This document shows positions 1 through 21,879 of a DNA stretch of 32,551 nt, one piece after another. Source of the stretch: an uncultured Glaciecola sp. (GTDB taxonomy: Bacteria; Pseudomonadota; Gammaproteobacteria; Enterobacterales; Alteromonadaceae); the NCBI RefSeq assembly GCF_937770335.1, contig NZ_CALJHY010000013.1, forward strand, positions 1 to 32,551, read 5' to 3'. A model generated the notes under the pieces. It was not told the DNA's origin. It saw only the letters and a list, made by a program, of their open reading frames with translations, and ran no database searches. Within the stretch, counting starts at the first letter, position 1. The number at the start of each line of letters is the position of its first letter. The position numbers were made by a program, and so were the translations under genes.

Positions 1-1445
1 CGTTGTGTTAAGTCGACACTGAAGTTATCGGCAATATCTATTAACGCTCGTTGCGCAGCCTGCATATCTGAAAGTGACACTGAATCAAACAGTCCATTTG
101 TTAATGCCGACAGAATGGTAATTTGCCCAGCCACTGTTATAGGTGAGCCTTCTTGCTGCTGCAAAAAGGCGCGTATCCGACGACCTCGATCAATCACTTT
201 TTGCGAACTTGCATTTAAACGGGCACCAAATCGAGCAAAACTCTCTAACTCTTCGAATTGCGTGTAGGCAAGTTTTAGAGCACCCGCAGCCTCTCGAAAC
301 ACTTTTAGTTGCGCTTTGCCACCCACTCTTGATACCGATTTACCGACATCAACCGCGGGTAATATACCTAAATCAAATAAGCTCGGGGAAAGATAAATTT
401 GACCATCTGTAATCGAAATTAGGTTAGTGGGTATGTATGCAGATATATTCTGCTCTTCGGTTTCAATGATAGGTAAGGCAGTAAGTGAGCCTCCACCATG
501 TTCTTCATTTAGATGGGTAGCACGTTCAAGCAAACGAGAATGTATATAAAATATGTCGCCCGGGAACGCTTCTCTACCAGGCGGTCTGCGCAGTAAAAGT
601 GACAACTCTCGATATGATCTTGCATGTTGGGTTAAATCGTCATAAACAATAAGGACGTCGCGCCCCTGATGCATGAAGTATTCAGCAATACTAGTGGCTG
701 CATAAGGGCAAATGTAGTTCAAACCGGGGGGATTATTACCTTCAGTGGCAACTAACAACGTATATTTCATCGCGTCGTGATGGCGCAAGAACGCCAGCGT
801 TTTTGCAATTGAAGCTGCTCGCTGGCCTATTGCGCAATAGATACAGACTACATTTTTCCCTTTTTGATTAATGATGGCGTCTATCGCAATAGCAGTCTTT
901 CCCGTTTGCCGATCACCCATAATCAGTTCTCTTTGACCCCGACCAATGGGAAGTAAGGCATCTATGACCTTTAAACCAGTTTGTAAAGGCTGAGTCACGG
1001 GCAGACGCGCCATTACTGCCGGGGCTGGTCGCTCTATTGGCATGCGTTCATATAAATTAGGTAATGGTTTTGCATCTAGAGGCCTGCCAAGCGGATCGAT
1101 CACTCTTCCTATTAACTCATTACCGACGGCAACGTCCACAACGCGGCCAGTTCGGTGAACCTCATCCCCAGCACTTAGGTTCCAATAATCGCCGAGTAAT
1201 ACTACGCCAATTTCGGTTTCATCAAGATTAAAAGCAATCCCATAGATACCATTAGGAAACGACAGCAGTTCTTCAAAACCTGCGTCAGGTAATCCACTCA
1301 CGATCGCAATACCGGTTGACACCCGCACAACGGTGCCTACTTCTTGAAATGATATATTTATCTCTAGCGCTTCACGAGCCTCTTGCATAGAGGTAAAAGC
1401 AGTCTTAAAGGCTTTATCTATTGGCACATCTATGCATTCATTCAA
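1..1445 (-). CDS. atpA: N-type ATPase F1 alpha subunit, 3' end cut by window edge
   Basis: Alpha subunit of the catalytic F1 head of an N-type (alternative) F-ATPase. Reading the minus strand from 1445 gives an uninterrupted frame of about 481 residues to the left edge. It includes the Walker A motif GDRQTGKT (complement of about 895-930), the alpha-type stretch IGQRAAS, and YDDLTQHA. No ATG fits the N-terminus. A TTG at 1445-1443, preceded at good spacing by GGGAG, gives a start like [17 protein letters not shown], which matches the N-terminal layout of N-type alpha subunits, so TTG is my chosen start. It lies 22 bases after atpF in the same operon. The C-terminal end and probably atpG lie outside the window. 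Family assignment is firm; the TTG start is less sure. Confidence 0.93.
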
Positions 1446-1467: not shown

Positions 1468-2292
1468 TTAAAAAGTCGCTTTAGATTGATCACCGGCTGA
1501 CTCTGGCTTAGTATTTTGCTTTAGAGGTGGAAGTTGAATCACGTCATTTACACGGTCTTGCAATTTTTTAAGATGGTCATGGATACTCCATGCTAATTTC
1601 CAACCTCCTACACTGAGTTCTAAGCCCGCCATCAGCTTGGGAACACAAACGAAATCAAGCGTAAGACAAGGCTGGTTTTGCTTACTTAATAATTCGGTTA
1701 AGGTGCGCTCGATGTCCGTTTTGTATTCATCATTCAATGGAAATGCGCTGCGCACGACAAGCTGATCAGCCTTTTGCATTGCCTCACTCAACCTTTCGTA
1801 ATGCTTGCCACTCAATCCCTTGAGTTGGTTTAAAAACTTATCTACTATCGCCTGTTCTAATTTAACGCCTGCAAGGTCGTCTAATATTTTAGCGGCGGTG
1901 GCGTAGACCTCTTCGATGTTTTGGCTTAACACCGTGTGCTCCAGATTGCGCAAAACGCTTTGCGTCGATTCCATTCTTTTACGCAGTATTTCATCGGCAT
2001 CCTGCTGTGCACAAGCAACTAACTTAATCCGTTGTTGTTTTGCTTCAGTCTCTGCTTTTTCCATAATTGCTGCGCGTTGTTGTTCTAGTTCTGCCTCTTT
2101 ATGTTGGCAAATATGTTGGCGCTGCTCGGCGTCAGCATTCTTTGTATTAGCCTCATCTAAGGTTTTTTTTAAGCGCATCTCACGAGCATCTAACTTGTTC
2201 AGGATAGGCCGATACAGAAAATATCGAAGCAACCACAGCAAAACTGAGAAATTGATGATTTGCGCAGCGATAGTAAACCAATCAAACGGCAT
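1468..2292 (-). CDS. atpF: N-type ATPase subunit b with delta-like C-terminal domain
   Basis: Peripheral stalk subunit of the Fo part, 274 residues, much longer than an ordinary b subunit (about 156). One N-terminal membrane segment (about residues 5-27) is followed by a charged, heptad-like coiled coil (about 35-125). The C-terminal 100 residues look like the end of a delta subunit: a stretch [19 protein letters not shown] (about 212-230) resembles the delta pattern of a strand, a conserved gly-rich turn and a second strand. No separate atpH gene is present in the cluster, in keeping with a b-delta fusion as known for N-ATPases. The start is an ATG 3 bases past the atpE stop. The fusion reading rests on pattern resemblance only. 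Confidence 0.9.
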
Positions 2293-2295
2293 GGT

Positions 2296-2574
2296 TTAGG
2301 CTCCACTGAGGTCGACAAAGTAGTTCCAAAACGGATTTGAAAATAGCAATATCATAGTAACGACAAAACAATAAATAGCGGTTGACTCAATCATCGCTAA
2401 GCCCACAAAAAGGGTTCGTGTAATTGTAGATGACGCGTCAGGTTGCTGGGCTAACGCAGCCAGAGCACCTGCGACCGCTCTACCTTCAGCAAAAGCAGGA
2501 CCAATAGCACCAAAGCCTATAGTTATACCCCCAGTAATAATCGATACAACTGCAATTAAAGTTAACTCGTTCAT
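2296..2574 (-). CDS. atpE: N-type ATPase c subunit (rotor ring proteolipid)
   Basis: Rotor-ring subunit with two transmembrane hairpin helices. I place the start at the ATG 2574-2572 (92 residues, MNELTLIAV) because AGAGGA stands 6 bases upstream; a longer in-frame version would begin inside atpB. Helix 1 carries GAIGPAFAEGRAVAGAL with Glu30 where Na+-type c rings have Gln. The loop has AQQPDA. Helix 2 carries the ion site MIESTAIY with Glu63, Ser64, Thr65 and Tyr68. The two-glutamate pattern is typical of N-ATPase c subunits. The EST-Y set resembles Na+ rings, but the Glu at the helix-1 position leaves the coupling ion (Na+ or H+) open. Confidence 0.95.
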   Translation of the reverse strand: MNELTLIAVVSIITGGITIGFGAIGPAFAEGRAVAGALAALAQQPDASSTITRTLFVGLAMIESTAIYCFVVTMILLFSNPFWNYFVDLSGA

Positions 2575-2575
2575 G

Positions 2576-3295
2576 TTAATTCCTCTGTTTATTGGCGGGA
2601 CCATTAATCCTTTGTAAAGGCGATTTAGCGGCACTGACACTGGTAGCAGCGGCTATATAGACCGAAGCAAGTATAAAAAAGATGTAGGCTTGCACCATGC
2701 CGGTTAACAATCCCAGAACAGTCATGACTATTGGAAATAATAACGGCGAAATAAGCAGCAAAATCGCGATTATCATGCTGCCACTCATTATATTTCCAAA
2801 CAATCGGATCGCTAACGCAAAGGTACGCGAGAGCTCACCAATCATATTAAACGGCAGCATCAGCACGGTAGGTTGGAGGTATGAGGCAAAATATCCCTTA
2901 ATACCTTTTTGTTTGATACCAAAATACGGAACCGCGACAAAGACACAAAGTGCCAACGCAATAGTGGTTGAAAGTGACCCTGTAGGTGGCTCGTAGCCGG
3001 GGAAAATAGTGAACAGATTAGCTATTCCGACAAACAGCAATAAAGTGCCTAAGAAAACGATATATTGCCGCGGATTGCACAGGCCTGTGCTCGCAATCTG
3101 TTTTTCTATACCCAGCACGATAATTTCTAGGGCATTTTGCCACCGAGATCCTTGGATCTCGTCAGTCAAACGGCGAGTAATCAAACGTGAACCCGCGGTC
3201 AGCACTAGTATCAGGCACCATGTAAACACAATGGTCGCGTTTAACTTAACAAAATCATACTGCCAAAATACGATGTCATCTGGACTCAGGTGCAT
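2576..3295 (-). CDS. atpB: N-type ATPase subunit a
   Basis: Membrane stator subunit forming the ion half-channels against the c ring, 239 residues with about five to six hydrophobic helices. The essential arginine of subunit a is visible as Arg164 in LAIRLFGNIMSG, preceded by NMIGELSRTFA. The C-terminal helix QAYIFFILASVYIAAA is the usual a-subunit ending. The start ATG overlaps the end of atpR by 20 bases and has GGAGC upstream. The stop lies one base before the atpE start, consistent with translational coupling along the operon. Confidence 0.95.
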   Translation of the reverse strand: MHLSPDDIVFWQYDFVKLNATIVFTWCLILVLTAGSRLITRRLTDEIQGSRWQNALEIIVLGIEKQIASTGLCNPRQYIVFLGTLLLFVGIANLFTIFPGYEPPTGSLSTTIALALCVFVAVPYFGIKQKGIKGYFASYLQPTVLMLPFNMIGELSRTFALAIRLFGNIMSGSMIIAILLLISPLLFPIVMTVLGLLTGMVQAYIFFILASVYIAAATSVSAAKSPLQRINGPANKQRN

Positions 3296-3620
3296 GATTA
3301 GCTCCTGTGGACGACTCCGTTGCCCTACCTATGCGCGCTTCGCGGCTCTTTACATTAGCGCCAATGAACCTGCTAATCAGATATCGCCCGACAATAAAAC
3401 CGCACAAACTAGCGAGTAAAAGAAGCCAATTTCCCATGCCAATCAAATAGAAGCCGCCGATCGCCAAAGTCATTCTAGTTATCCAAGCCCCGATAAACCA
3501 AAGTACTTCTGGCTTCGCCCCCGTGATTTTTTGCGTTGATAACCACAATACATAGAAAAACGCGCAACCCAACAAAATGCCTTGTGCAAAGGCAATGAGC
3601 ACTGAAATTAATATCGTCAT
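3276..3620 (-). CDS. atpR: N-ATPase accessory membrane protein AtpR
   Basis: Small membrane protein (114 residues) specific to N-ATPase operons. Three hydrophobic segments are visible (about residues 4-27, 39-61 and 64-84), with arginines near or in the membrane in WITRM (Arg49) and GFIVGRYL (Arg79). In the literature on N-ATPases such arginines have been proposed to pair with the c-subunit glutamates during ring assembly; that role is not shown here. It sits between atpQ and atpB, overlapping atpB by 20 bases. The C-terminal 25 residues are hydrophilic. Identity rests mainly on position and topology. Confidence 0.85.
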   Translation of the reverse strand: MTILISVLIAFAQGILLGCAFFYVLWLSTQKITGAKPEVLWFIGAWITRMTLAIGGFYLIGMGNWLLLLASLCGFIVGRYLISRFIGANVKSREARIGRATESSTGANHAPESR

Positions 3621-3640: not shown

Positions 3641-3952
3641 CTATTTATCTTCGTCAATGGCTTTGTGTTCCTTGCTTAGCCAACTCCACGCCGTAAAACA
3701 GCCAATTACTAGGCCAGCTAAAATGCAGGCCAGCGTCCATGAGCGTTCATCGTTAACATTTTTGTCTAGCCACAAACCCAGCGCTGCACCAAGTAGCGTA
3801 GGAACCGCGATAGACCAGCCCACCAGGCCGATCATGCCCAACCCAAACCAAAGCCCCGGTTCCCCGCGTTCTCTAGCGCTTAGCTTACGATCAGCCTTGG
3901 AGCCAATCTTATCGGATAAAGAAGAGGCTTTTTTATCTGGCTTGGGGGTCAC
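3641..3952 (-). CDS. atpQ: N-ATPase accessory protein AtpQ (AtpI-like)
   Basis: Protein of 103 residues with a charged N-terminus of about 30 residues and two membrane helices (about 38-62 and 70-91). The motif GLGMIGLVGWSIAVPTLLGAA followed by LGLWLDK matches the AtpI/putative F1Fo-ATPase subunit family seen in N-ATPase operons (named AtpQ or AtpI). The start is a GTG at 3952-3950, 4 bases after the atpC stop, with AAGG upstream. The family has been linked to Mg2+ or Ca2+ handling and to c-ring assembly; nothing in the sequence decides which. Confidence 0.85.
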   Translation of the reverse strand: MTPKPDKKASSLSDKIGSKADRKLSARERGEPGLWFGLGMIGLVGWSIAVPTLLGAALGLWLDKNVNDERSWTLACILAGLVIGCFTAWSWLSKEHKAIDEDK

Positions 3953-3956
3953 TTAT

Positions 3957-5832
<1,876 letters not shown>

Positions 5833-5847
5833 TTATCGTTAAGAGTG

Positions 5848-5853
5848 ATGTTA
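5848..5853 (-). promoter_or_regulatory. candidate -10 of the atpD operon
   Basis: On the minus strand TAACAT (four of six matches to TATAAT) sits about 31 bases past the centre of the palindrome at 5875-5888. This is close to the spacing of a class II FNR-type promoter (site centred near -41.5), giving a start near 5840, about 32 bases before the atpD ATG. It is read by eye. Confidence 0.35.
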
Positions 5854-5874: not shown

Positions 5875-5888
5875 TTGACCCTGATCAA
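5875..5888. promoter_or_regulatory. FNR/FixK-type box in the atpD/pfk divergent region
   Basis: TTGACCCTGATCAA is a near-perfect 14-base dyad: TTGAC, four spacer bases, then ATCAA. It fits the TTGAY-N4-RTCAA consensus of FNR, ANR and FixK proteins. It is the only such site between atpD and pfk, so it could serve either promoter. The spacing to a -10-like element is better on the atpD side. A second box with the same TTGACCC half lies upstream of glgC at 9344-9357. Confidence 0.75.
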
Positions 5889-5976
5889 GATTAAGTATGT
5901 TAGTTAACTACTCACCTCTTATAAGTATTAACACCTATTACTCTGCCTGCTCGTTTGATGCATAATTGAGTTTAGA

Positions 5977-6969
5977 ATGGATAGCGGAATAATGGTGATG
6001 ATGAGCGAAATCAAGCATATTGGTATCTTTACTTCTGGTGGTGACGCTCCTGGTATGAATGCCGCTTTATTTGCAGTGGCTAAGACGGCCCAAACTTACG
6101 GCATTAAAGTCAGTGGCATTCGCCGGGGTTTTGAAGGCCTTATAGATAATGATTTGATACCACTTCACGCTAATCAACTGCAAAGATCGATGCACTTTGG
6201 TGGCACAATGCTCAAAACAGCACGTAGTGATCGCTTCATGACCAAACAAGGACAAGAGAAAGCGGCGCAAACCATTCAACAAAATAGTATTGACGGTCTC
6301 ATTGCCATCGGTGGCGATGGTACGTTTCGGGGTATGTTGTGTTTAGCGAATATTAGCAACACCCCCTTTATTGGTATCCCCGGGACTATCGACAATGACA
6401 TAGCGGGCACTGATTATACCCTTGGGTTTGATTCAGCGGTAAATACTGCAATAAAGTGTATTGATAATATAAGAGATACTGCAGAATCGCATAACAGGGT
6501 TTTTCTAGTTGAAGTAATGGGCCGCGATTCTGGTTACATCGGTATTTATTCTGGCCTAAGTTGTGGGGCGGACTCGATTCTCATTCCGGAAAGTGATGAC
6601 GATTTTACCTATCTTTTGAACAAGATTAAAAACTACGACAGCGAAGATGCGTTTATTGTCGTTGTCGCCGAAGGTGATGACCTAGGAGTTGATAAGGTAT
6701 CGGCAGAAATCAGGAAAGTTAATGCTCATATAGATTTGCGCATTGCTAAACTGGGGCACATACAACGGGGGGGCAATCCTTCGGCTCAAGATCGTATGCT
6801 AGGGATTAGGCTAGGTGTTCTTGCAACAAAAGCACTCATCGGTGGAGAGTCTGGTCAAATAGCTGGCTTTTGCAATAATAAACCGACCTTAAGCCCTTTC
6901 GACAACGTTGTAAAAAAACAGTTAGTCGACATTGAACTACAACGACTCTTAGCAATATTTTGTGGATAA
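5977..6969 (+). CDS. pfkA: 6-phosphofructokinase, ATP type
   Basis: Phosphorylates fructose 6-phosphate in glycolysis. Visible motifs are FTSGGDAPGMNAA (18-30), IGGDGT (111-116; Gly rather than Asp at the ATP/PPi switch), PGTIDNDI with the catalytic Asp (about 139), EVMGRDSGYIG, and LGHIQRGGNPSAQDR. Gly in GGDGT and in PGTIDND points to ATP rather than pyrophosphate as donor. The E. coli effector-site arginines 21 and 25 correspond to Phe and Lys here, so ADP/PEP control may differ. An alternative start at the ATG 5998 (323 residues) has GCGGAA upstream and is nearer the usual length of 320. The gene is divergent from atpD with an FNR-type box between them. Confidence 0.93.
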   Translation: MDSGIMVMMSEIKHIGIFTSGGDAPGMNAALFAVAKTAQTYGIKVSGIRRGFEGLIDNDLIPLHANQLQRSMHFGGTMLKTARSDRFMTKQGQEKAAQTIQQNSIDGLIAIGGDGTFRGMLCLANISNTPFIGIPGTIDNDIAGTDYTLGFDSAVNTAIKCIDNIRDTAESHNRVFLVEVMGRDSGYIGIYSGLSCGADSILIPESDDDFTYLLNKIKNYDSEDAFIVVVAEGDDLGVDKVSAEIRKVNAHIDLRIAKLGHIQRGGNPSAQDRMLGIRLGVLATKALIGGESGQIAGFCNNKPTLSPFDNVVKKQLVDIELQRLLAIFCG

Positions 6970-6984
6970 CGGCTGCGTATCTTC

Positions 6985-7824
6985 CTAGCAAGGGTCAGCT
7001 TCAAAATTTACCATGACTTCTTGAATAGTAAATTTATCTAACAATAATACTTGAATCTCATTCTTAATAACCTGTAATTCTCTGACGGTCAAATCGGGAT
7101 TAACTTTGGCAATGATATCAGCTTCGCGTCCCTTATTTGTGCGCCGTACGCGAACTCTAACTATCTGTTTAACTGTAGAAAGATTAACTAAAGCTTCAGC
7201 CAGTTTATGGCGGTCAACATCACTATAATCGACCAAAATAGGAAGCGCACTGGAAAAAAGCGTAAACGCCATATAAAAAATCATGCAAGATACAATCACT
7301 GCAAAAATCGGATCCAACCAATAATACCCCAGCGCCGCAAACTGCCAGCCAAAAATGACCACAATCGTCGTTAGTACGTCAGACAGCGTGTGACTCGCAT
7401 CGGCGTATAAAATTGGCGAATGCAGCCGTTTCGCCCATGTCCTCTGCCAGACCGTTAAGCAAATATTGACGATTAGAACACCAACCATAACGCCCAAGCC
7501 GAGAATACTTTGTTTTACAGGCTGTCCGAATCGGCTAAACGCTTCAGTAATGACTTCAAAAGCCACTATAGTGAGTAGAGAAGCTAAAACCAATACCGCT
7601 ATCTGTTCAAACTTCTGATGACCGTAATTATGCTCCTCATCAGCCGGCGACTCCGATATTTTTATGGTAAACCAAGCAATAATATTGTTGGCTATGTCGG
7701 CCAGTGAATGAATAGCGTCAGCGATGATAGCAGTAGAGTTGGTCATTAAACCAATACTGAGTTTACTCAGCATAACGACTAAATTGACACTTCCTTCAAT
7801 TATTAATACTTTTCTGACATTCAC
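6985..7824 (-). CDS. Cation diffusion facilitator family transporter
   Basis: Divalent metal exporter of the CDF family, 279 residues, with about five to six membrane helices and a cytosolic C-terminal ferredoxin-like domain (about 200-279). The metal-site residues are visible as His39/Asp43 in ADAIHSLAD (helix 2) and His145/Asp149 in ADASHTLSD (helix 5), an HxxxD pair arrangement most often linked to Zn2+. The family motif DEEHNYGHQKFE (62-73) is intact. The start is GTG at 7824-7822 with GGAAG 7 bases upstream. It lies 19 bases after glgC on the same strand, so the two are probably co-transcribed. The actual substrate cannot be read from the sequence. Confidence 0.9.
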   Translation of the reverse strand: MNVRKVLIIEGSVNLVVMLSKLSIGLMTNSTAIIADAIHSLADIANNIIAWFTIKISESPADEEHNYGHQKFEQIAVLVLASLLTIVAFEVITEAFSRFGQPVKQSILGLGVMVGVLIVNICLTVWQRTWAKRLHSPILYADASHTLSDVLTTIVVIFGWQFAALGYYWLDPIFAVIVSCMIFYMAFTLFSSALPILVDYSDVDRHKLAEALVNLSTVKQIVRVRVRRTNKGREADIIAKVNPDLTVRELQVIKNEIQVLLLDKFTIQEVMVNFEADPC

Positions 7825-7843
7825 ATTTTAACTTCCGAATTTT

Positions 7844-9181
7844 TCAATTCAATTGGCTTACTTTACCTTTTAATAAATCAGCGCTGTTAAAGTTTTGTAG
7901 TGGTAAGTAGTTACATTTATTGATAGTTAAATTTTGTAACATTTTTTGTGTTACTAGCACAATTCCATTGCTACTCAAGCGAAAACCTCGCTCTAGGTCT
8001 TCCTTTTTACTTTCACCAATTTGCAAATTATCGGGAATAACGCAATTGCTATCAATAATCGCATTTTTAATAGAAACGTTATTTCCTACCTTAACGTTAG
8101 GTAGTAGAACTGAATGAGAGATATGTGCATTGTTACCAACAGTAGAATGTTCGAAGACCAAAGAATGCAGTATTGCTGAAGGATATATAATGCATCCAGC
8201 AGATATAAGCGAATTGGAGATCTGTCCTACTGGTGTCGTGTTACCACCCAAAAATCTTGCCGGCTGAAGGCAGCCTGTGGTGCTCCATATTGGCCATTTA
8301 GTATCACATAAATCAATTGAAGGTTGGCTGGACAGTAATGCCATATTGGCGTCCCAATAAGCATCAAGGGTTCCGACATCTCGCCAATAAGGGACTTTAT
8401 TGCCGCTTGATGCGCAAAAACGAAATGCTTGTATTTTTTGTTTTGTAAGCACCTTAGGAATAATATCTTTTCCAAAATCGTGGCAAGAATCATGCTGAAC
8501 GGCATCTTTTTGTAATTGCTCAATCAAAAACTCAGTATTGAATACATAATTGCCCATAGATGCCAGCACATGATCAGGCTTGTCGGGTAGACCCGTTGGA
8601 GCGATAGGTTTCTCTTCAAATGACACCACTACATCATCGCTATCAACATTCATCACGCCAAATTGACCAGCTGCTTGCTGAAGCGGTGTTTCGATACAAG
8701 ATACTGTCATTTGGGCACCACTTCTAACGTGTTTCTCGAGCATATTCCGATAGTTCATTTTGTATATATGATCACCCGAAAGGACTAATACATACTTAGG
8801 CATTACCGCTTTAATGAAATCAATATTTTGAAATAATGCGTCCGCAGTGCCTTGGTACCATTGTTCGGAATTTTGTTGTGATGCTGGCAATAATTCTAAA
8901 AACTCGCCAAAATTTTGATTGAATTTCGCCCAACTACTGACCAGATGCCGAATAAGACAGTGGGCTTTATATTGGGTGATAACGCCTATTTTCTTAAACC
9001 CTGAATTAACACAATTCGACAATGGAAAATCGATTATTCGACACCCTCCGCCAAACTCAAGGACTGGTTTAGCACGCGATTCCGTTAGTTCATGTAAACG
9101 ACTTCCTTGGCCTCCGGCCAATAGTATAACTAGCGTCTCGTTTGAAAGCTGATTAATGTCGGGCTGTTCTAAATATGCCAT
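7844..9181 (-). CDS. glgC: Glucose-1-phosphate adenylyltransferase (ADP-glucose pyrophosphorylase)
   Basis: Makes ADP-glucose from ATP and glucose 1-phosphate, the committed step of bacterial glycogen synthesis. From the ATG at 9181 (GAGG 6 bases upstream) it is 445 residues. Motifs: LAGGQGSRL (21-29), SGDHIYKMNY with catalytic Asp137, FEEKP with the glucose-1-phosphate Lys191, YWRDVGTLDAYW, then a left-handed beta-helix C-terminal domain. The E. coli activator lysine 39 aligns with Ser35 in LTESRAKP, so fructose-1,6-bisphosphate activation may be altered. No glgA, glgB or glgP is adjacent. An FNR/FixK box lies about 170 bases upstream. It heads a two-gene unit with the CDF transporter. Confidence 0.95.
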   Translation of the reverse strand: MAYLEQPDINQLSNETLVILLAGGQGSRLHELTESRAKPVLEFGGGCRIIDFPLSNCVNSGFKKIGVITQYKAHCLIRHLVSSWAKFNQNFGEFLELLPASQQNSEQWYQGTADALFQNIDFIKAVMPKYVLVLSGDHIYKMNYRNMLEKHVRSGAQMTVSCIETPLQQAAGQFGVMNVDSDDVVVSFEEKPIAPTGLPDKPDHVLASMGNYVFNTEFLIEQLQKDAVQHDSCHDFGKDIIPKVLTKQKIQAFRFCASSGNKVPYWRDVGTLDAYWDANMALLSSQPSIDLCDTKWPIWSTTGCLQPARFLGGNTTPVGQISNSLISAGCIIYPSAILHSLVFEHSTVGNNAHISHSVLLPNVKVGNNVSIKNAIIDSNCVIPDNLQIGESKKEDLERGFRLSSNGIVLVTQKMLQNLTINKCNYLPLQNFNSADLLKGKVSQLN

Positions 9182-9314
9182 ATAAAACCTCAAAAAATAC
9201 AGTGGTTAAAATTCAGACGCAACGGCAAAAATTAGCTTTTTAGGCGTGTAATAAAACTCAGTCTATCTGCCAAGGTTCACTAATTAAGGCAAAGTAGGTG
9301 ATGATATTGACTCT

Positions 9315-9322
9315 CTATTAAA
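9315..9322 (-). promoter_or_regulatory. candidate -10 of the glgC promoter
   Basis: The minus strand reads TTTAATAG here, containing TTTAAT and TAATAG as possible -10 hexamers. Their distance to the palindrome centre at 9350.5 is about 29-31 bases, the spacing of class II FNR-dependent promoters. This would give a transcript start near 9309 and a leader of about 130 bases. Confidence 0.4.
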
Positions 9323-9343
9323 CAACAGTCTTAGAAAAACAAC

Positions 9344-9357
9344 TTGACCCATGTCAA
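9344..9357. promoter_or_regulatory. FNR/FixK-type box upstream of glgC
   Basis: TTGACCCATGTCAA is a perfect 5-4-5 dyad (TTGAC, then GTCAA) matching the FNR/FixK consensus. It lies 3 bases past the stop of the fixK-like gene and upstream of glgC, both on the minus strand. It can therefore drive glgC-CDF independently of readthrough. Confidence 0.78.
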
Positions 9358-9360
9358 GTA

Positions 9361-10164
9361 TTATTGAGTTAGAGAGCAACTCGATTGAACACAATAGTTA
9401 TCCGATCTTGCATCATTGCTATTATTAAAATGTAAATCAGTATTTTTGTGATCAGTAAAACCGTTTTTTGAAGCAATACAACGCAAAGTATCGATGTCCA
9501 AAATGCTTACTTGGCGATTGTGCACGAGAATTAATTGCTTCTGCTGAAAACTCGTAAATACACGACTCACCGTTTCAAGCGCCATTCCCATATAATTGGC
9601 TATATCTGTTCGCGTCATGCTAAGGCTAAACTGTATTCCAGATAGCCCATGACTGGAAAACTGCTTAGATAACTCAAGAAGAAAACGCCCCACTTTCTGC
9701 TCGTTTGAACAAGAACTTAGGCACATCATCATTGCGCTATCATTGATCAACGCATTACTCATAGAACGTAACAAGCAGTTCCTAAAATCATCACTTTTTT
9801 TAACCAAGCTATTTAACTCTGATTCTTTGAGTAGACAAACACTGCTCGTTTCTAGAAAAAGTACATTTTCCATATAAACATGTTGGTCAAATCCATCTGC
9901 ACCTAGCAAGTCTCCCGGATAAAAGAATTTGGTAATATGCTCTTCGCCATCAAGAGATGTAACAAACGATTTCGCCGAGCCTGAACGCAATATATGCAAA
10001 CCTTCAAACGATTCTCCAGCAGAAAATAGTGATTGTTTTGCATGAAAAACGCGATGTGAATTGGTTAATTTTAAATTGTTTGATTTTTCAACAATTTCTA
10101 AGCATACTTTTAATGAGGGAGAAAATTTATCGGTACGACTGGACAGTAATGATGAAGTATTCAT
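9361..10164 (-). CDS. fixK: Crp/Fnr-family regulator, FixK-like
   Basis: Transcription factor of 267 residues: cyclic-nucleotide-binding-like beta roll (about 40-120), dimerisation helix (about 125-160), winged helix-turn-helix (about 175-225). The recognition helix contains ETVSR (197-201), the same specificity residues as FNR, so it should read TTGAY-N4-RTCAA sites. Two such sites are nearby. It lacks the N-terminal Cys cluster of FNR: only Cys21 is present there, although Cys110 matches FNR Cys122. It therefore probably does not carry a 4Fe-4S sensor and is closer to FixK. A C-terminal tail of about 35 residues has Cys258 and Cys263. It is divergent from fixL-fixJ, as expected if FixJ activates it. 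The symbol is by role, not proven orthology. Confidence 0.82.
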   Translation of the reverse strand: MNTSSLLSSRTDKFSPSLKVCLEIVEKSNNLKLTNSHRVFHAKQSLFSAGESFEGLHILRSGSAKSFVTSLDGEEHITKFFYPGDLLGADGFDQHVYMENVLFLETSSVCLLKESELNSLVKKSDDFRNCLLRSMSNALINDSAMMMCLSSCSNEQKVGRFLLELSKQFSSHGLSGIQFSLSMTRTDIANYMGMALETVSRVFTSFQQKQLILVHNRQVSILDIDTLRCIASKNGFTDHKNTDLHFNNSNDARSDNYCVQSSCSLTQ

Positions 10165-10245
10165 GTTTTTATAACCTGTTTTGAGTTCGGGCCATTGGCG
10201 CTAATTAAAGATGAACTGAATTATCTAGCCGTCAAAATTGTTTTT

Positions 10246-10253
10246 AGACGTAG
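10246..10253. promoter_or_regulatory. weak candidate FixJ site between fixK and fixL
   Basis: AGACGTAG matches six of eight positions of the rhizobial FixJ element GTAMGTAG as I recall it. It lies 82 bases before the fixK start and 93 before the fixL start. A six-of-eight match in AT-rich DNA is weak evidence. Confidence 0.25.
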
Positions 10254-10345
10254 ATTTTATATAACGATCGAGGTTTTCGCTATCGGAGCAATCACCTAAT
10301 TAATTGCGGAAAATACCTATTTTATTTCTAATAAGGATATTATTT

Positions 10346-11536
10346 ATGAAGCCCCCTTCTAAGCTGACACTAGCGCTATTGCTTGCAAATGAAAATAATA
10401 ATTACCAAGCGATAAAAGATGCTAGTGCACAATTAATTAGTTTATTCAATGCAGCCCCTGATGCCTTAATTATTATTGACCAAACAGGCGTTATCGAGCT
10501 TATAAACACAACAACTCAAACTATGTTTTTGTATAACGAACACGATTTAATCGGTGAAAACATCAGCATGCTAATGCCTGATTCTATAAAAAATGCACAC
10601 GACGGATACCTTTCGGCATACCTCCAAACAGGCAAAACAAACATTATTGGTAAAGGTAGAAAACTTAGTGCAATTAAATCTAATGGTGAAGAATTCTGTA
10701 TTTTTTTAAGTGTTGGGGAAGTCACTAACTCGAGTCATACACAGTTTGTCGGAATAATCAGTGATATTTCAGAGCAAGAAAAACAGCAAACAATACTGAT
10801 GGAAACGAAAGAAAAATTAGCACAAGCAACTAGATTAACTGCAATGGGCGAGTTGGCAGCAGGAATTGCGCATGAAATTAATCAACCTTTAGCAGCCATA
10901 TTAAGTTATGCCCAAGCATCTAAACGCTTAATAAATTCACCTGGAACTTTGGATATAAACGCAATAACCGAACCGCTAGAAAAAATTTGTGAGCAGGCTT
11001 TGCGTACACATGAAGTTATTGATCGGCTTAGGACTCTAGTCAAAAGACATACCGCCCAGCGAGAAAAGGTCGACCTTTACCCCCTTATTCACGAAGCAGT
11101 GCGTCTGACCAAAACAGACCCACGAATGCGAGGTCATGAAATTGAACTCGACTTAGAAGAAGGCAAATCCATTGAATTGTTTGTTGATCCTATTCAAATC
11201 CAACAAGTGCTACTGAATTTAATTCGAAACGCCGTGGACGCTATGGAGCAAGAGAAAGGAATGCCAGTAAAAATAGGGTGTCGACGGTTATCTGGAAAAG
11301 AAATTGAGGTCTCTGTCACAGATTCTGGTAAGGGCATAACCGCGGATGCTAGTAGTAGTATTTTCGCACCTTTTTTTACAACCAAAAAAACTGGCATGGG
11401 CATGGGATTATCTGTTTGCCAAACAATAATCCATGGCCATGGCGGCAGAATATATTATCGTTCGAAAGAGCCACAAGAGACTATATTCTCGTTCAGTCTT
11501 CCCCTATTTACTGAAAATCAAAGCGGTAGGGAGTAA
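10346..11536 (+). CDS. fixL: FixL-like heme-PAS oxygen sensor histidine kinase
   Basis: Sensor kinase of 396 residues, starting at ATG 10346 with AAGGA upstream (an upstream in-frame TTG is unlikely). A PAS domain (about 28-145) carries the FixL heme pocket pattern: His85 in NAHDGYLS aligns with the heme-ligand His200 of Bradyrhizobium FixL, and Arg105 in IIGKGRK with its Arg220. The oxygen-pocket Arg206 is replaced by Ala91. The HisKA helix has the phospho-acceptor His176 in GIAHEINQPLAAI. The ATPase domain has NLIRNAVDAM (291-300), DSGKG (326-330) and GMGMGL (350-355). No membrane helices are seen, so it is a soluble sensor. fixJ follows after 3 bases. Confidence 0.92.
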   Translation: MKPPSKLTLALLLANENNNYQAIKDASAQLISLFNAAPDALIIIDQTGVIELINTTTQTMFLYNEHDLIGENISMLMPDSIKNAHDGYLSAYLQTGKTNIIGKGRKLSAIKSNGEEFCIFLSVGEVTNSSHTQFVGIISDISEQEKQQTILMETKEKLAQATRLTAMGELAAGIAHEINQPLAAILSYAQASKRLINSPGTLDINAITEPLEKICEQALRTHEVIDRLRTLVKRHTAQREKVDLYPLIHEAVRLTKTDPRMRGHEIELDLEEGKSIELFVDPIQIQQVLLNLIRNAVDAMEQEKGMPVKIGCRRLSGKEIEVSVTDSGKGITADASSSIFAPFFTTKKTGMGMGLSVCQTIIHGHGGRIYYRSKEPQETIFSFSLPLFTENQSGRE

Positions 11537-11539
11537 TAA

Positions 11540-12175
11540 ATGCAAAATACACAATCTAGACAATTCAATGCTACCGTTCACGTAGTTGATGATGACGATG
11601 CAGTGCTAGACTCTGTCGGTTTACTGTTAACCACTATTGGCATAAATAATTATTCCTACAGCAATGCACAAAAGTTTTTAGATGCGTACTGTCACCCAGA
11701 TTTTGATAAGCACAGTGGCTGTATTTTAATGGATATTAGAATGCCGGTTATGAGCGGTATAGAGTGCCAATATAGACTTGAAGAATTAGGCTGTACCTTG
11801 CCTATTATTTTTGTAACGGGTCATGGCGACGTACCTACAGCAGTAGAAACGATGAAAAACGGCGCATTTGACTTAATTCAAAAACCGTATAGAGAACAAG
11901 TGCTTATCGATGCAATTCAAAAAGCGTTATCACAAAATACAAGCGCCCAATCGCACAACAAAAAAATAAATAATACGAAGGAAAGATTAGCAACGTTAAC
12001 GAATCGCGAGACACAAATATTGGATGCTATCCTAGATGGGAAAGCCAACAAGGTAATTGCAATAGAGCTATCGCTAAGTCAACGAACCGTCGAAATTCAT
12101 AGAGCACGAGTAATGGAAAAAATGGCGGTAAAGTCACTCGCTGAATTAGTAAAGATAGTACTAGATACTTTGTAG
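11540..12175 (+). CDS. fixJ: FixJ-like response regulator (REC-LuxR HTH)
   Basis: Two-domain response regulator, 211 residues. The receiver domain (about 10-125) has the acidic cluster VDDDD, the phospho-acceptor Asp65 in LMDIRMPVMSG, Thr93 in FVTGHGDV and Lys115 in QKPY. A short linker leads to a LuxR-type helix-turn-helix (about 145-205) with LTNRETQILDAILDGK and LSQRTVEIHRARVMEKM. The VTGHGD and KPY motifs are typical of the FixJ/TodT group. It directly follows fixL and is surely its partner. Expected target, by analogy, is the divergent fixK-like gene. Confidence 0.93.
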   Translation: MQNTQSRQFNATVHVVDDDDAVLDSVGLLLTTIGINNYSYSNAQKFLDAYCHPDFDKHSGCILMDIRMPVMSGIECQYRLEELGCTLPIIFVTGHGDVPTAVETMKNGAFDLIQKPYREQVLIDAIQKALSQNTSAQSHNKKINNTKERLATLTNRETQILDAILDGKANKVIAIELSLSQRTVEIHRARVMEKMAVKSLAELVKIVLDTL

Positions 12176-13296: not shown

Positions 13297-13710
13297 TCAT
13301 GCTTCCCATGGATTAATGATTTGCATTTTAATATGCTTGTAATCTAATGGATGACGAGTAACTAAACTCATATTGTTGACTAAACAGGTAGCAGCAATCA
13401 TGGCATCTCGTTCCGATTTAGGATTAGGCACATGCAACGCAGCGCAATGTTCTGCCATTTCGGCATCAAATGCAACAATCCGACCTTTAAAACCCTGTAA
13501 TACTTGCTTCTTTAGCCAATTATTTAAGGCGTCACCTTCTTTAGGTGACGTTTTTCGTTTTTCCAGAATCGCCAGCTTTAATTCCAATACGCTAATTGAT
13601 GAAACATATAAATTGAAAACCTGTTGCTGACTGGCCCACACTATGAGCTTTGCGTCCTCTTCAGCTGGGCTTCTTAACGCAGACAAAACACTGGTATCGA
13701 GTAAATACAT
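13297..13710 (-). CDS. vapC: PIN-domain toxin, VapC type
   Basis: Toxin ribonuclease of a type II toxin-antitoxin pair, 137 residues, a normal length. The acidic metal-binding residues of the PIN active site are all visible: Asp5 in YLLDTSVLS, Glu43 in SVLELK, Asp102 in SERDAMIAATC and Asp123 in HPLDY. The C-terminal INPW is typical of this VapC group. It starts 9 bases after the antitoxin stop on the same strand, the usual antitoxin-first order. The pair is probably self-regulated. Confidence 0.92.
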   Translation of the reverse strand: MYLLDTSVLSALRSPAEEDAKLIVWASQQQVFNLYVSSISVLELKLAILEKRKTSPKEGDALNNWLKKQVLQGFKGRIVAFDAEMAEHCAALHVPNPKSERDAMIAATCLVNNMSLVTRHPLDYKHIKMQIINPWEA

Positions 13711-13719
13711 AATAATTCC

Positions 13720-13965
13720 TTATACCGATTGGCTCGACGCATTGAACTTAGGCACCAGCAATTCAATAGCAGCGGTATCTGGAGCACCTAACAAATCACA
13801 AATAGTGCTCGTTTTACCGGTTATTTCTAAATATTCCTCGATGCTCATCATCATGTACGCAACCACGCCTCGTTCAGTGATTTTTATGGGACCTTTTTTA
13901 GCTGCGCGCTTCACCGAACTTGGATCTTGGTTAAATTGACGGCTAGTAAAAGTATCTATATTCAT
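13720..13965 (-). CDS. Phd/YefM-type antitoxin
   Basis: Antitoxin partner of the downstream PIN toxin, 81 residues. The N-terminal DNA-binding part (about 1-50) has the Phd/YefM layout: SRQFNQDPSSVKRAAKKGPIKITERG, followed by YMMMSIEEYLEITG. The C-terminal 30 residues would wrap the toxin. It likely represses its own promoter, in which overlapping palindromes lie at 13983-13993. Confidence 0.88.
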   Translation of the reverse strand: MNIDTFTSRQFNQDPSSVKRAAKKGPIKITERGVVAYMMMSIEEYLEITGKTSTICDLLGAPDTAAIELLVPKFNASSQSV

Positions 13966-18951: not shown

Positions 18952-21879
18952 GTGCTCAAGTTGCAAAAGGACAGAATAGAATTGAAAGCAATATTTGCGC
19001 AGTATTTATTTATTGGACTGTTATTAGCACTGAATGCTTTACCATTGACGGCATTCAGTCAAGAACAACCTGTCGAGCGCGGCACTAATATCAATACCGT
19101 CGAAGTAAAAGGCATTACTGCGTCAATTAATTTACAAAATACCGTAGCCTTGCATTATACCAGCGAAGGTTTGTTACTTTCCGATGTTGTTCAACTAACT
19201 CAGTGGCAACGCCAGTTTTCCCTCACTCCGATCCCCGAAAATAAAGTCTTATGGGTCCGCTTCCAAATTCAAAACTCTGGTAGTAGTAATACGCCGTTAA
19301 TGCTCATTGCTGGAAATACTTTTATTGACCGGGTAGATGGATTTTTACTTGATGATCAGGGTCGCATTATTCAGTCTATTCAACGCAATAACGCCAACCC
19401 AAACCCGAATGCTAGCGGCTTACATGGTTTTAGAATGGCGATTACATCTCGCCCTGATCAATTACTTAGTGTTTACCTACGAATACATGACGATGGTTCA
19501 GCAATATTACCAATCGAATTATGGGATGAGAAAAAATTTGAGCAGCAAAGTAGTGTTCGGCTTATCTTGCTTGGCGCTCTTTGTGGCGGTTTATCTCTAT
19601 TAGCCACCTATTTTTTAATCACTTACATGCTGAAAAATGCACCCGCTCGCTTTTGGTTTGCGATATTTTCAGTTGCATCAATGACAACATTGCTCAGCGC
19701 AGAAGGCATTCTACCGAGTCTATTTAGTCTTCCCGCCTTTGCGGCTGAAATAACCGCCTTTAGTTTAACTATTAGTTTATTTGCCGCCATTAAGATTGGC
19801 CGCGATATATTTGTACCCGTGTCGCGGGTTTGGTTGCGAGCTCATTATATTCTGCTGTTAGTCCCAATCATCACGTTATTTCTATACAACGACTTTTGGC
19901 AGTTAATATCTATTTTAGGCATCATCATCGCGTTTTTAGTCAGCAAACTCTTCGCCACACTGATCTATCGATCTAAAATAGATATGCGCAGCACTGTTAT
20001 TTATTTCTGTGGTTGGCTTGCAATAGGTTTAGTCGCAGCATTGGAGGTACTCTCATTTGCACAAGGAGCAAGTCATCTGAGCTATTCTGCAGCATTGCCG
20101 TTCGCTTTTACTTGCTTTGGCATAATGCTAATTGGTGTTGCTATTATCAGCCGTGAACATTCATTAGTGTATCGACAAGAACGCGAGCAAGCGTCTATTA
20201 TTAGTAATCTTCAGCACTTTGCAGATGTGTTTGATAATGCGGCCGAGGGTCTATACGCCGCCAAGTCTGACGGTACTTTACTGCGCGCAAATGCTGCCTT
20301 CACTTCACTTTTTGGGTTTGAGTCAGAGCAGCGACTGCTCGATACTTTTCATAAAATACATGATTTGTTTTCAAATCCCATTGAAGCTGATTTGTTGCTA
20401 GGTGAGTTATCCGCGCAACAAACTGTGCTGGGGAAGGAGTTTAAAGGGAAACGAGTTGATGGTAGGGAATTTTGGTTTTCAATCTCAAGCCAGATTGTCA
20501 AAGCTAAAGGTGACGCCGAACATTTTGGTAGCATATTCGATATTACTGAACGCAGAGTCAATCAAATCAATCTGCAGTACTTGAATACCCATGATCAGTT
20601 AACAGGCCTGCATAATCGTCGTCACTTCTTACAGTTATTAAATGAGAAAGTCACTCAATCCAAGCTTGATAAGAAGCACTTTGCACTGCTTTATATTGAT
20701 GTTGATCAATTTAAAATGATCAATGATACCTGCGGTCATATTGCGGGTGATGTGTTCATTAAAGAACTTGCATATGAACTATATGAAGTATTCGACCCAA
20801 AATGGATTTTCGCGCGCCTGAGTGCTGATGAGTTTGGTCTTATTGTTGAATATCAAGATGAAAATAAAATTCATGAAACAACCCATAAAATTCTTACCAA
20901 AGTACGTAAATTTGAATTCAAATGGGATCGTCACCGCTTTACCCAAAGTGTGAGTATCGGTGTTGCAAAACATGAAACTACTATCCTCAGCGGAGAGGAG
21001 TTACTCAGTTTTGCCGACACCGCCTGTATTGTTGCCAAAGAAAGTGGACGCGATAAAGTACATGAGTATTCGACAGGTATGCTTATCAACAATAGCTACG
21101 AAAGGGAACTCTACTGGGTCGGTGAGGTTAATCGAGCGTTGAAAGAAGATTCCTTCGAACTGTACTTTCAACATTACCGTCCACTTAACAAATCGGATGA
21201 CAATGATTATTATGAGATTTTTATCCGCTTAATAACAACGGATGGTGACGTGACGCTACCAGACTTTTTTATGCCTGCAGCGGAACGGCACAATTTAAGT
21301 AACAAAATAGATAAGTGGGTGATTGAAAACTATTTTGTTTGGTTAAACACAAACTCCGAGTGTATGGACAAACTTGCCAAGTGTAATATCAACATCACAG
21401 GACCTTCATTATCTGATGACGATTTCCAGTTTTTCTTACTTAACGTATTTGAGAAGTACCATATTCCACACCAAAAAATATGTTTCGAAATCACTGAAAC
21501 TACGGCCATCATTAACATGAACGACGCAATTGCGTTTATAAAGCAATTTAAACGCTTAGGCTGTACTTTCGCGCTTGACGATTTCGGTAGTGGATTTGCT
21601 AGTTATGGTTATTTGAAAAACTTACCTGTGGACTATGTCAAAATTGATGGTAACTTTATTCGTAATATATTAACCGACCCGATTGATTTGGCGATGGTAA
21701 CCTCTATTCGCGATGTCGCCGGGGCTATGTCTATTCAGACTGTAGCTGAGTTTGTAGAGTCTGATGAGATTTTGGTTCAGCTAGGAAAAATAGGATTAGA
21801 CTTTGCACAAGGATATTGTATTGCAGAACCTGCACCTTTAATCGAGTTTGTGTCGTATAATAGCGTGCCAACAAAATAA
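18952..21879 (+). CDS. Membrane GGDEF/EAL protein with 7TMR-DISM sensor and PAS domain
   Basis: Cyclic-di-GMP signalling protein, 975 residues. Order: signal peptide (about 10-36), periplasmic 7TMR-DISM-type beta domain (about 50-195), seven membrane helices (about 203-400), PAS (about 418-535), GGDEF (about 545-705), EAL (about 715-965). The GGDEF motif reads SADEF (624-628), so cyclase activity is probably lost. The EAL motif reads EIF (Glu755), but the other metal and catalytic residues look intact: Asn814, EITE (846-849), DD (876-877), Lys897, Glu933, Gln953. It is thus probably a phosphodiesterase. There is no ATG start; GTG 18952 or TTG 18961 (AGGTG 6 bases upstream) are candidates. Confidence 0.9.
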   Translation: MLKLQKDRIELKAIFAQYLFIGLLLALNALPLTAFSQEQPVERGTNINTVEVKGITASINLQNTVALHYTSEGLLLSDVVQLTQWQRQFSLTPIPENKVLWVRFQIQNSGSSNTPLMLIAGNTFIDRVDGFLLDDQGRIIQSIQRNNANPNPNASGLHGFRMAITSRPDQLLSVYLRIHDDGSAILPIELWDEKKFEQQSSVRLILLGALCGGLSLLATYFLITYMLKNAPARFWFAIFSVASMTTLLSAEGILPSLFSLPAFAAEITAFSLTISLFAAIKIGRDIFVPVSRVWLRAHYILLLVPIITLFLYNDFWQLISILGIIIAFLVSKLFATLIYRSKIDMRSTVIYFCGWLAIGLVAALEVLSFAQGASHLSYSAALPFAFTCFGIMLIGVAIISREHSLVYRQEREQASIISNLQHFADVFDNAAEGLYAAKSDGTLLRANAAFTSLFGFESEQRLLDTFHKIHDLFSNPIEADLLLGELSAQQTVLGKEFKGKRVDGREFWFSISSQIVKAKGDAEHFGSIFDITERRVNQINLQYLNTHDQLTGLHNRRHFLQLLNEKVTQSKLDKKHFALLYIDVDQFKMINDTCGHIAGDVFIKELAYELYEVFDPKWIFARLSADEFGLIVEYQDENKIHETTHKILTKVRKFEFKWDRHRFTQSVSIGVAKHETTILSGEELLSFADTACIVAKESGRDKVHEYSTGMLINNSYERELYWVGEVNRALKEDSFELYFQHYRPLNKSDDNDYYEIFIRLITTDGDVTLPDFFMPAAERHNLSNKIDKWVIENYFVWLNTNSECMDKLAKCNINITGPSLSDDDFQFFLLNVFEKYHIPHQKICFEITETTAIINMNDAIAFIKQFKRLGCTFALDDFGSGFASYGYLKNLPVDYVKIDGNFIRNILTDPIDLAMVTSIRDVAGAMSIQTVAEFVESDEILVQLGKIGLDFAQGYCIAEPAPLIEFVSYNSVPTK

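Follow-up and report, generated by a model that had tools for sequence, protein, structure and literature searches.

The closest described system is the rhizobial FixL-FixJ-FixK cascade of S. meliloti and B. diazoefficiens, which combines a heme-PAS kinase, a FixJ-type regulator, a Crp/Fnr protein lacking the Fe-S cysteines, two fixK-like genes and boxes of the form TTGAY-N4-RTCAA (PMC4999443; here and below, papers are cited for the excerpts on which we draw). Outside rhizobia, FixLJ of B. dolosa induces fixK in low oxygen (PMC5234846), and universal stress genes have been described in this connection, one beside a Burkholderia fixK homologue and six in a B. cenocepacia locus activated by low oxygen (PMC6127331, PMC9104464). 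We analysed a stretch of 32,551 nucleotides (the window) from an uncultured Glaciecola sp., contig C13 (NZ_CALJHY010000013.1) of a 3.85-Mb genome. This genome shares all the listed elements of the rhizobial cascade, and in the window the fixL-like, the fixJ-like and one of the two fixK-like genes are found beside an operon for an N-ATPase. We propose that the locus is a low-oxygen cascade of the FixLJ-FixK type that has recruited the N-ATPase and an accessory glgC, a reading to which we give a probability of about 0.6. Such cascades are known; the N-ATPase as their output is newly proposed here, from sequence.

The N-ATPases (Dibrova et al. 2010, as cited in PMC11738941) have their genes in the order beta-epsilon-X-X-a-c-(b delta)-alpha-gamma, according to the quotation from PMC11738941, and the cellular functions of N-type ATPases have been called 'largely unexplored' (PMC5376962). 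No report of low-oxygen control of an N-ATPase was found in the literature searched, most subscription papers lying outside it. In the excerpts of PMC9927469, the word 'microaerobic' concerns oxidases; 'ATPase' is absent from the main text of PMC9104464 and PMC6127331 and occurs once in that of PMC5234846, for a kinase domain. The present locus differs from the rhizobial cascade in that its Crp/Fnr protein is derived from FNR, its predicted targets are the N-ATPase, glgC and stress genes, and its likeness to a FixJ site is weak. It differs from the Burkholderia loci as well, where fixLJ and fixK have distant locus tags.

In the window, an N-ATPase operon headed by atpD (minus strand) is divergent from pfk (plus), which is followed by a CDF transporter gene and glgC (minus), a Crp/Fnr gene (minus) and, divergent from the latter, a fixL-like and a fixJ-like gene (plus). 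An earlier note on this DNA had described the same arrangement, and every gene that it named was found in its place.

Boxes and promoter geometry at atpD and glgC

In a class II promoter, the FNR box is centred near -41.5, and a -10-like hexamer is therefore expected to begin 21-22 nt after the box. The features concerned are the following.

4336..5808, minus strand: atpD, N-ATPase beta, the first gene of the operon (TIGR03305, 842.7 bits, cut-off 752)
5848..5853, minus strand: -10-like hexamer TAACAT, on the atpD side of the box at 21 nt, 4/6 to TATAAT
5875..5888, no strand assigned: FNR/FixK box between atpD and pfk, a perfect match, kept in G009
about 5977..6969, plus strand: pfk, ATP-type, start codon uncertain
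6985..7824, minus strand: CDF cation transporter (PF01545, TIGR01297), about 20 nt behind glgC
7844..9181, minus strand: accessory glgC paralogue (NF001947, 570 bits)
9317..9322, minus strand: -10-like hexamer TTTAAT, on the glgC side of the box at 21 nt, 5/6; the same offset gives 5/6 in G009 and G010
9344..9357, no strand assigned: FNR/FixK box of the glgC promoter, a perfect match; a box also precedes the same glgC in G009 and G010

Both palindromes marked in the earlier note, at 5875 and 9344, are perfect matches to TTGAY-N4-RTCAA. Their placement at two promoters stood in part: the first does lie between atpD and pfk, but the second follows the end of the fixK-like gene, and the promoter that it serves is that of glgC rather than fixK. 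At the class II offset, atpD scores 4/6 and pfk 2/6, so the switch at 5875 points to atpD.

These observations were extended to other N-ATPase operons. Searching for the beta subunit at E <= 1e-200 gave hits in 12/369 genomes of the class, 12/398 of the phylum and 28/395 of the family (overlapping sets), and the 46 distinct loci were scanned within 400 bp upstream of the conserved beta start. A perfect box was present at 16 of the 46 promoters, compared with a mean of 0.13 and a maximum of 2 in 100 dinucleotide shuffles and with 0/46 for the reversed pattern. The same-genus fragment G010, which is outside this count, has a box at its cut atpD. Spacing was then assessed on 16 sites from 15 promoters (the far-upstream box of G1063 was left out and G1053 contributed two). 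The match to TATAAT peaked at offset 21, with a mean of 3.75 out of 6 and at least 4 in 11/16 sites, and none of 5000 mononucleotide shuffles reached this peak at any offset. The box-positive genomes include near-copies (e.g. G918 and G936), and when the measurement was repeated on 11 less redundant sites, the value was reached by 1/5000 shuffles. The 32 box-gene pairs that the host genome holds outside the window formed a second set, which also peaked at 21 (3.09), a value that 0/3000 shuffles reached at that offset. A class II FNR-type promoter, as predicted from this geometry, at N-ATPase operons is the strongest new point of the analysis.

Boxes were also in excess in the window and in the genome. 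With at most one mismatch, 15 sites match in the window, where shuffles average 6.26 (15 was reached by 1/100 shuffles), including a third perfect box at 20696, inside a GGDEF-EAL gene. The whole genome contains 65 perfect boxes, whereas the reversed control pattern occurs 28 times; 53 of the 65 could be placed, 29 between genes and 24 inside them (a share that has no control), and a gene start lies within 350 bp in 26 of the 29. Pfam was run on 10 proteins, and for the nine that are encoded by box-associated genes of this genome it returned Usp, HSP20, cytochrome c, a COX1-family oxidase, ferritin, a CBS protein, a 2-hydroxyacid dehydrogenase, a beta-CASP nuclease and HMG-CoA reductase. Most of these nine are what we take to be the sort of gene expected in an FNR/FixK regulon. 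A small cytochrome-c-like lipoprotein with the motif DSPRGFSLPxGD (L061:10650-11102; also in L057, L058, L062 and, as NSPRGFSLP, in L056) recurs by fixLJ/fixK-type loci with a box nearby.

Among 21 genomes, only G009 and G010 have relatives of the accessory glgC (at least 64% identity), and all three copies (window, G009, G010) have a perfect box. Of the canonical glgC genes elsewhere in the genus, none of the 8 fetched has one, and a single gene has a site with one mismatch. In G009, of the same genus, the genes rarD-glgC-pfk-atpD are collinear with those of the window, and CDF and fixK-fixLJ are missing at that place. The two corresponding sites read TTGATATGGGTCAA and TTGATCAAGGTCAA, and because these centres differ, only the half-sites of the boxes are conserved. 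The common TTGACCC form, which the earlier note had remarked on, is thus incidental, and we dropped it as a signal. The N-ATPase operon of G009 is cut short after atpD, inside epsilon (L021:6921-8592), and is followed by non-N-ATPase genes; both boxes remain.

The local low-oxygen regulon that had been suggested from the window is therefore retained as far as sequence goes for atpD and glgC, whose predicted class II promoters are kept in relatives and recur at other N-ATPase operons, but not for pfk.

The sensor, the regulators and a shared upstream element

9361..10164, minus strand: FixK-like Crp/Fnr regulator without CX2CX5C (from profile scores, motif reading and tree)
10295..10319, no strand assigned: conserved element between the fixK-like and fixL-like genes, a putative FixJ site
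10346..11536, plus strand: fixL-like heme-PAS histidine kinase; best NCBIfam model is rhizobial FixL
11540..12175, plus strand: fixJ-like response regulator (PF00072 and PF00196; best model PRK09390, 225 bits, cut-off 255)

Over its whole length, the PAS domain of the FixL-like protein can be aligned with the solved FixL heme domains, AHDGY standing opposite RHDSY and IIGKGR opposite IIGIGR, with the His and the Arg kept. These we take to be the proximal His (H200) and the distal-side Arg (R220) of the FixL heme PAS. The alignment supports the conclusion that the protein is of the heme type.

The Crp/Fnr protein scored 153.9 with the FNR model (cut-off 228) and 77.8 with the FixK model (cut-off 300), thus below both cut-offs and outside the FixK equivalog by score. 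The motif CX2CX5C, which together with a fourth Cys marks the FNR cluster, is absent from this protein and from its paralogue on contig C4. It is present in all 8 FNR orthologues that were read, a set that excludes those of the host genome (G000) and of G009. In a tree of 18 rows, six proteins linked to fixLJ and three other rows stood on one side of a branch (100/99), with the eight FNR orthologues and G197 on the opposite side; G034 was the first to branch under midpoint rooting. Judged by these scores, the motif and the tree, the window 'FixK' is derived from FNR. Being without the cysteines, it would act in the manner of FixK despite its FNR ancestry, and the FNR-like regulator beside FixLJ has probably lost its own oxygen-sensing cluster. 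The fixLJ-linked protein of G034 (L022:5278-6051) keeps CX2CX5C and the fourth Cys, so it may sense oxygen both via FixL and directly. Of the FixL-FixJ-FixK-like circuit of the earlier note, the sequence supports the heme-type FixL, the FixJ-like regulator and the Crp/Fnr protein without FNR cysteines.

In the gap between fixK and fixL, a 25-bp element is conserved in five genomes in which the other intergenic sequence has diverged, and a sixth genome has it with 2 mismatches. A pattern was built from those five genomes, the window copy included, and G034 fits it with one mismatch. In the host genome, the only match with one mismatch besides the window copy stands upstream of another fixK-like gene, the second of this genome, which is located on contig C4 and is not accompanied by fixLJ. 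An element common to the two fixK-like genes is the best evidence for one common regulator. A third copy, with 2 mismatches, precedes the gene of a 265-amino-acid DUF1451 protein (G000:C4:71374-71398; L251), and a similar copy is found in G1042 (L173:19485).

As to which protein binds the element, in reverse complement it agrees with the FixJ site of S. meliloti (quoted in PMC4999443) at 11/16 positions, a value reached by 232/5000 shuffles of the element and by 280/1000 shuffles of the whole gap. The match is weak by this measure, and FixJ is therefore put forward as the presumed binder with the match used only as support. The consensus from systematic evolution of ligands by exponential enrichment (SELEX) quoted in the same paper is matched at 6 to 9 of 10 positions across seven copies of the element, a figure that has no control.

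Association of fixLJ with the N-ATPase and competing explanations

We called a FixL close when it had at least 48% identity, a threshold that was chosen after seeing the data. With this definition, 36 family genomes showed a close FixL in 4/5 of those with an N-ATPase (that of G010 being a fragment) and in 1/31 of those without (p = 0.0004). Among the 28 family genomes with an N-ATPase, host included, 11 have a close FixL. In five of these 11 (window, G034, G1053, G820 and G1072), no more than 20 kb separate fixL from the N-ATPase; in three fixL is far away and in three on another contig. At one of the named FixL loci treated below, that of Leucothrix arctica (L132), fixLJ is accompanied by a weak Usp match (27%) and three boxes.

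Neighbouring genes were compared in 20-kb neighbourhoods. Stress and regulator genes (Usp, CbpA, fixLJ/fixK, pfk, phosphoenolpyruvate synthase and others) were present in 15/27 family N-ATPase regions versus 1/26 control regions of the same family, with a gene list and identity thresholds that were of our choosing, the list being drawn partly from loci of the test set. The window and G1087 were left out of the 27 regions and the fragment G010 was included. Since four loci had helped to choose the gene list, the count was repeated without them, which gave 11/23 (p = 0.0005). Over all regions the figures were 17/44 versus 2/40, the 44 neighbourhoods being the 46 surveyed loci reduced to 43 by leaving out the window, G476 and G1087 (the last two on short contigs or not fetched), together with the G010 fragment. 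A gene for a CorA-like Mg2+ transporter recurs in 8 of these 44 (L171:8110-9177 and relatives).

We considered the possibility that the boxes are read by ordinary FNR only and that fixLJ-fixK is an unrelated neighbour, close by chance or through a shared genomic-island history. G009 favours it, as it keeps both boxes with no fixLJ-fixK at that place and neither a close FixL nor a close FixK in its genome; so do the position of fixL, far off or on another contig, in 6 of the 11 family genomes and the intact CX2CX5C of the FNR orthologues. Furthermore, a close FixL is found in 8/14 box-positive and 3/14 box-negative family genomes (p = 0.12), i.e., the box does not track FixL, which makes ordinary FNR the probable reader in some genomes. 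Yet the co-occurrence of N-ATPase and close FixL over the 36 genomes, their proximity in 5/11 and the gap element common to two fixK-like genes all argue for a connection, and we regard a reading by FNR alone as unlikely.

Another explanation would make pfk, glgC and the N-ATPase a single low-oxygen energy unit, with pfk as a real target. In its favour, pfk and atpD share the box region in the window and in G009. A phosphofructokinase (PFK) gene of another type stands directly upstream of atpD in G744, G918, G936 and G878 (L182, L183, L184, L167; GGDGT and PKTIDND were read in G918 only), so that the pairing of PFK and N-ATPase seems to have arisen more than once. The spacing speaks otherwise: the class II offset towards pfk gives 2/6 in the window and 3/6 in G009. 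A perfect box is present at 0/11 pfk genes located elsewhere in the genus, one of which has a site with one mismatch. Moreover, in each of 13 same-genus genomes, host included, no PF00365 gene other than pfk was found, so that pfk is probably needed in air too. On spacing and on these in-genus controls pfk was rejected as a class II target; it probably merely shares an intergenic region with atpD, and a single unit of the three is quite improbable.

It might also be that the N-ATPase serves salt or acid stress and that the boxes are incidental. Acid stress has been proposed for the B. pseudomallei enzyme (PMC5376962) and salt or acid stress in PMC9927469; the ESTxxY of the c subunit fits Na+ export; and 30 of the 46 N-ATPase promoters, that of the same-genus G003 among them, have no perfect box. 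However, the number of boxes and their exact class II spacing are far above shuffles, and we give this explanation very little credence.

Apart from the absence of boxes at 30/46 promoters and the behaviour of G009, FixL and pfk just described, several results weigh against a FixLJ-FixK-type cascade with the N-ATPase and glgC as its outputs. Box-positive promoters number 14/28 inside the family and 2/18 outside it. The complete gene set occurs in the window only: it is absent from all 44 other N-ATPase neighbourhoods, and its conservation, a lack of which the earlier note had named as refuting its reading, was discarded as evidence. This refutation applies to the full set and not to pairs, as with fixL near the N-ATPase in 5/11. 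Among named FixL loci (29 from genome contigs, 26 to 54% identity), an N-ATPase is nearby in 0/21 annotated ones. The FixL, FixJ and FixK models all remain under their curated cut-offs, rhizobial FixL scoring 328.3 versus 850 bits though it is the best-scoring model, and the 'FixK' comes from FNR. Finally, the FixJ-site match is also reached by shuffles, and at 3 mismatches or fewer the element pattern finds 8+3 sites versus 13+12 for its reversed control. The weakest points overall concern pfk, the gene set in its exact form and the site for FixJ.

The N-ATPase and its predicted role

The remaining genes of the operon are as follows.

3957..4346, minus strand: atpC, N-ATPase epsilon (TIGR03166, 142.9 bits, cut-off 100.1)
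3641..3952, minus strand: AtpQ-like gene (ATPase_gene1, PF09527)
3276..3620, minus strand: AtpR (PF12966, 60.7 bits, cut-off 26)
2576..3295, minus strand: atpB, N-ATPase a (TIGR03306, 359.5 bits, cut-off 302.1)
2296..2574, minus strand: atpE, N-ATPase c, with Glu in helix 1 (FAEGRAV) and ESTAIY in helix 2
1468..2292, minus strand: atpF, fused b-delta (Pfam ATP-synt_B and OSCP in one protein)
1..1445, minus strand: atpA, N-ATPase alpha; an open frame cut by the contig end, TTG start inferred, alpha being at the same place in the operons of relatives

From beta to alpha, the order is that given in PMC11738941, the beta and a subunits are of the alternate F1F0 type and AtpR is present. The final junction, with gamma, is not visible because alpha runs off the contig; another contig, C9, has a gamma-like gene close to its end. 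The operon resembles published N-ATPases in gene order, AtpR, the fused b-delta and a c subunit with two Glu residues. ESTxxY is the typical Na+ motif according to PMC9927469, and the c ring of B. pseudomallei was measured to be H+-specific (PMC5376962). From ESTxxY in c, Na+ export by the present enzyme is likely. For published N-ATPases, including that of B. pseudomallei (PMC5376962), the role proposed in the excerpts used is ion pumping in salt or acid stress, whereas a low-oxygen role is proposed here from the promoters. Elsewhere in the window, between rarD and recQ, a PIN-domain protein (13297-13965) is encoded with a Phd/YefM-like antitoxin (below the Pfam cut-off), and the pair is also present in G009 (L021:2320-2988).

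In the cascade that we propose, a fall in oxygen would cause the heme PAS of FixL to lose O2 and the kinase to phosphorylate FixJ, as expected from the family and the kept residues. Phosphorylated FixJ would bind the element at 10295-10319 as well as the copy upstream of the second fixK-like gene, switching both fixK-like genes on. These FNR-type proteins, which lack the cluster cysteines, together with ordinary FNR, would then read TTGAY-N4-RTCAA at promoters whose class II geometry was observed above. The predicted targets are atpD and the accessory glgC and, elsewhere, genes for Usp, HSP20, the small cytochrome c, the COX1-family oxidase and the 2-hydroxyacid dehydrogenase. The N-ATPase would spend ATP from substrate-level metabolism, derived partly from stored glycogen, to export cations, probably Na+, so that the membrane stays charged when respiration fails.

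For the family at large, we suggest, tentatively and at somewhat short of even odds, that the N-ATPase is a hypoxia pump: an enzyme that only burns ATP, is switched by FNR or FixK at class II promoters, is paid for by glycogen and glycolysis, and keeps a (sodium) membrane potential when respiration stops. If this is true, low-oxygen control would be a main physiological role of N-ATPases, besides salt and acid stress. Since G034 still has the cysteines, a switch from direct to indirect oxygen sensing may have been caught part-way. That predicted class II promoters of the FNR type recur in front of N-ATPase operons opens a cheap and direct test of another role for these enzymes, which would be to survive a sudden loss of oxygen.

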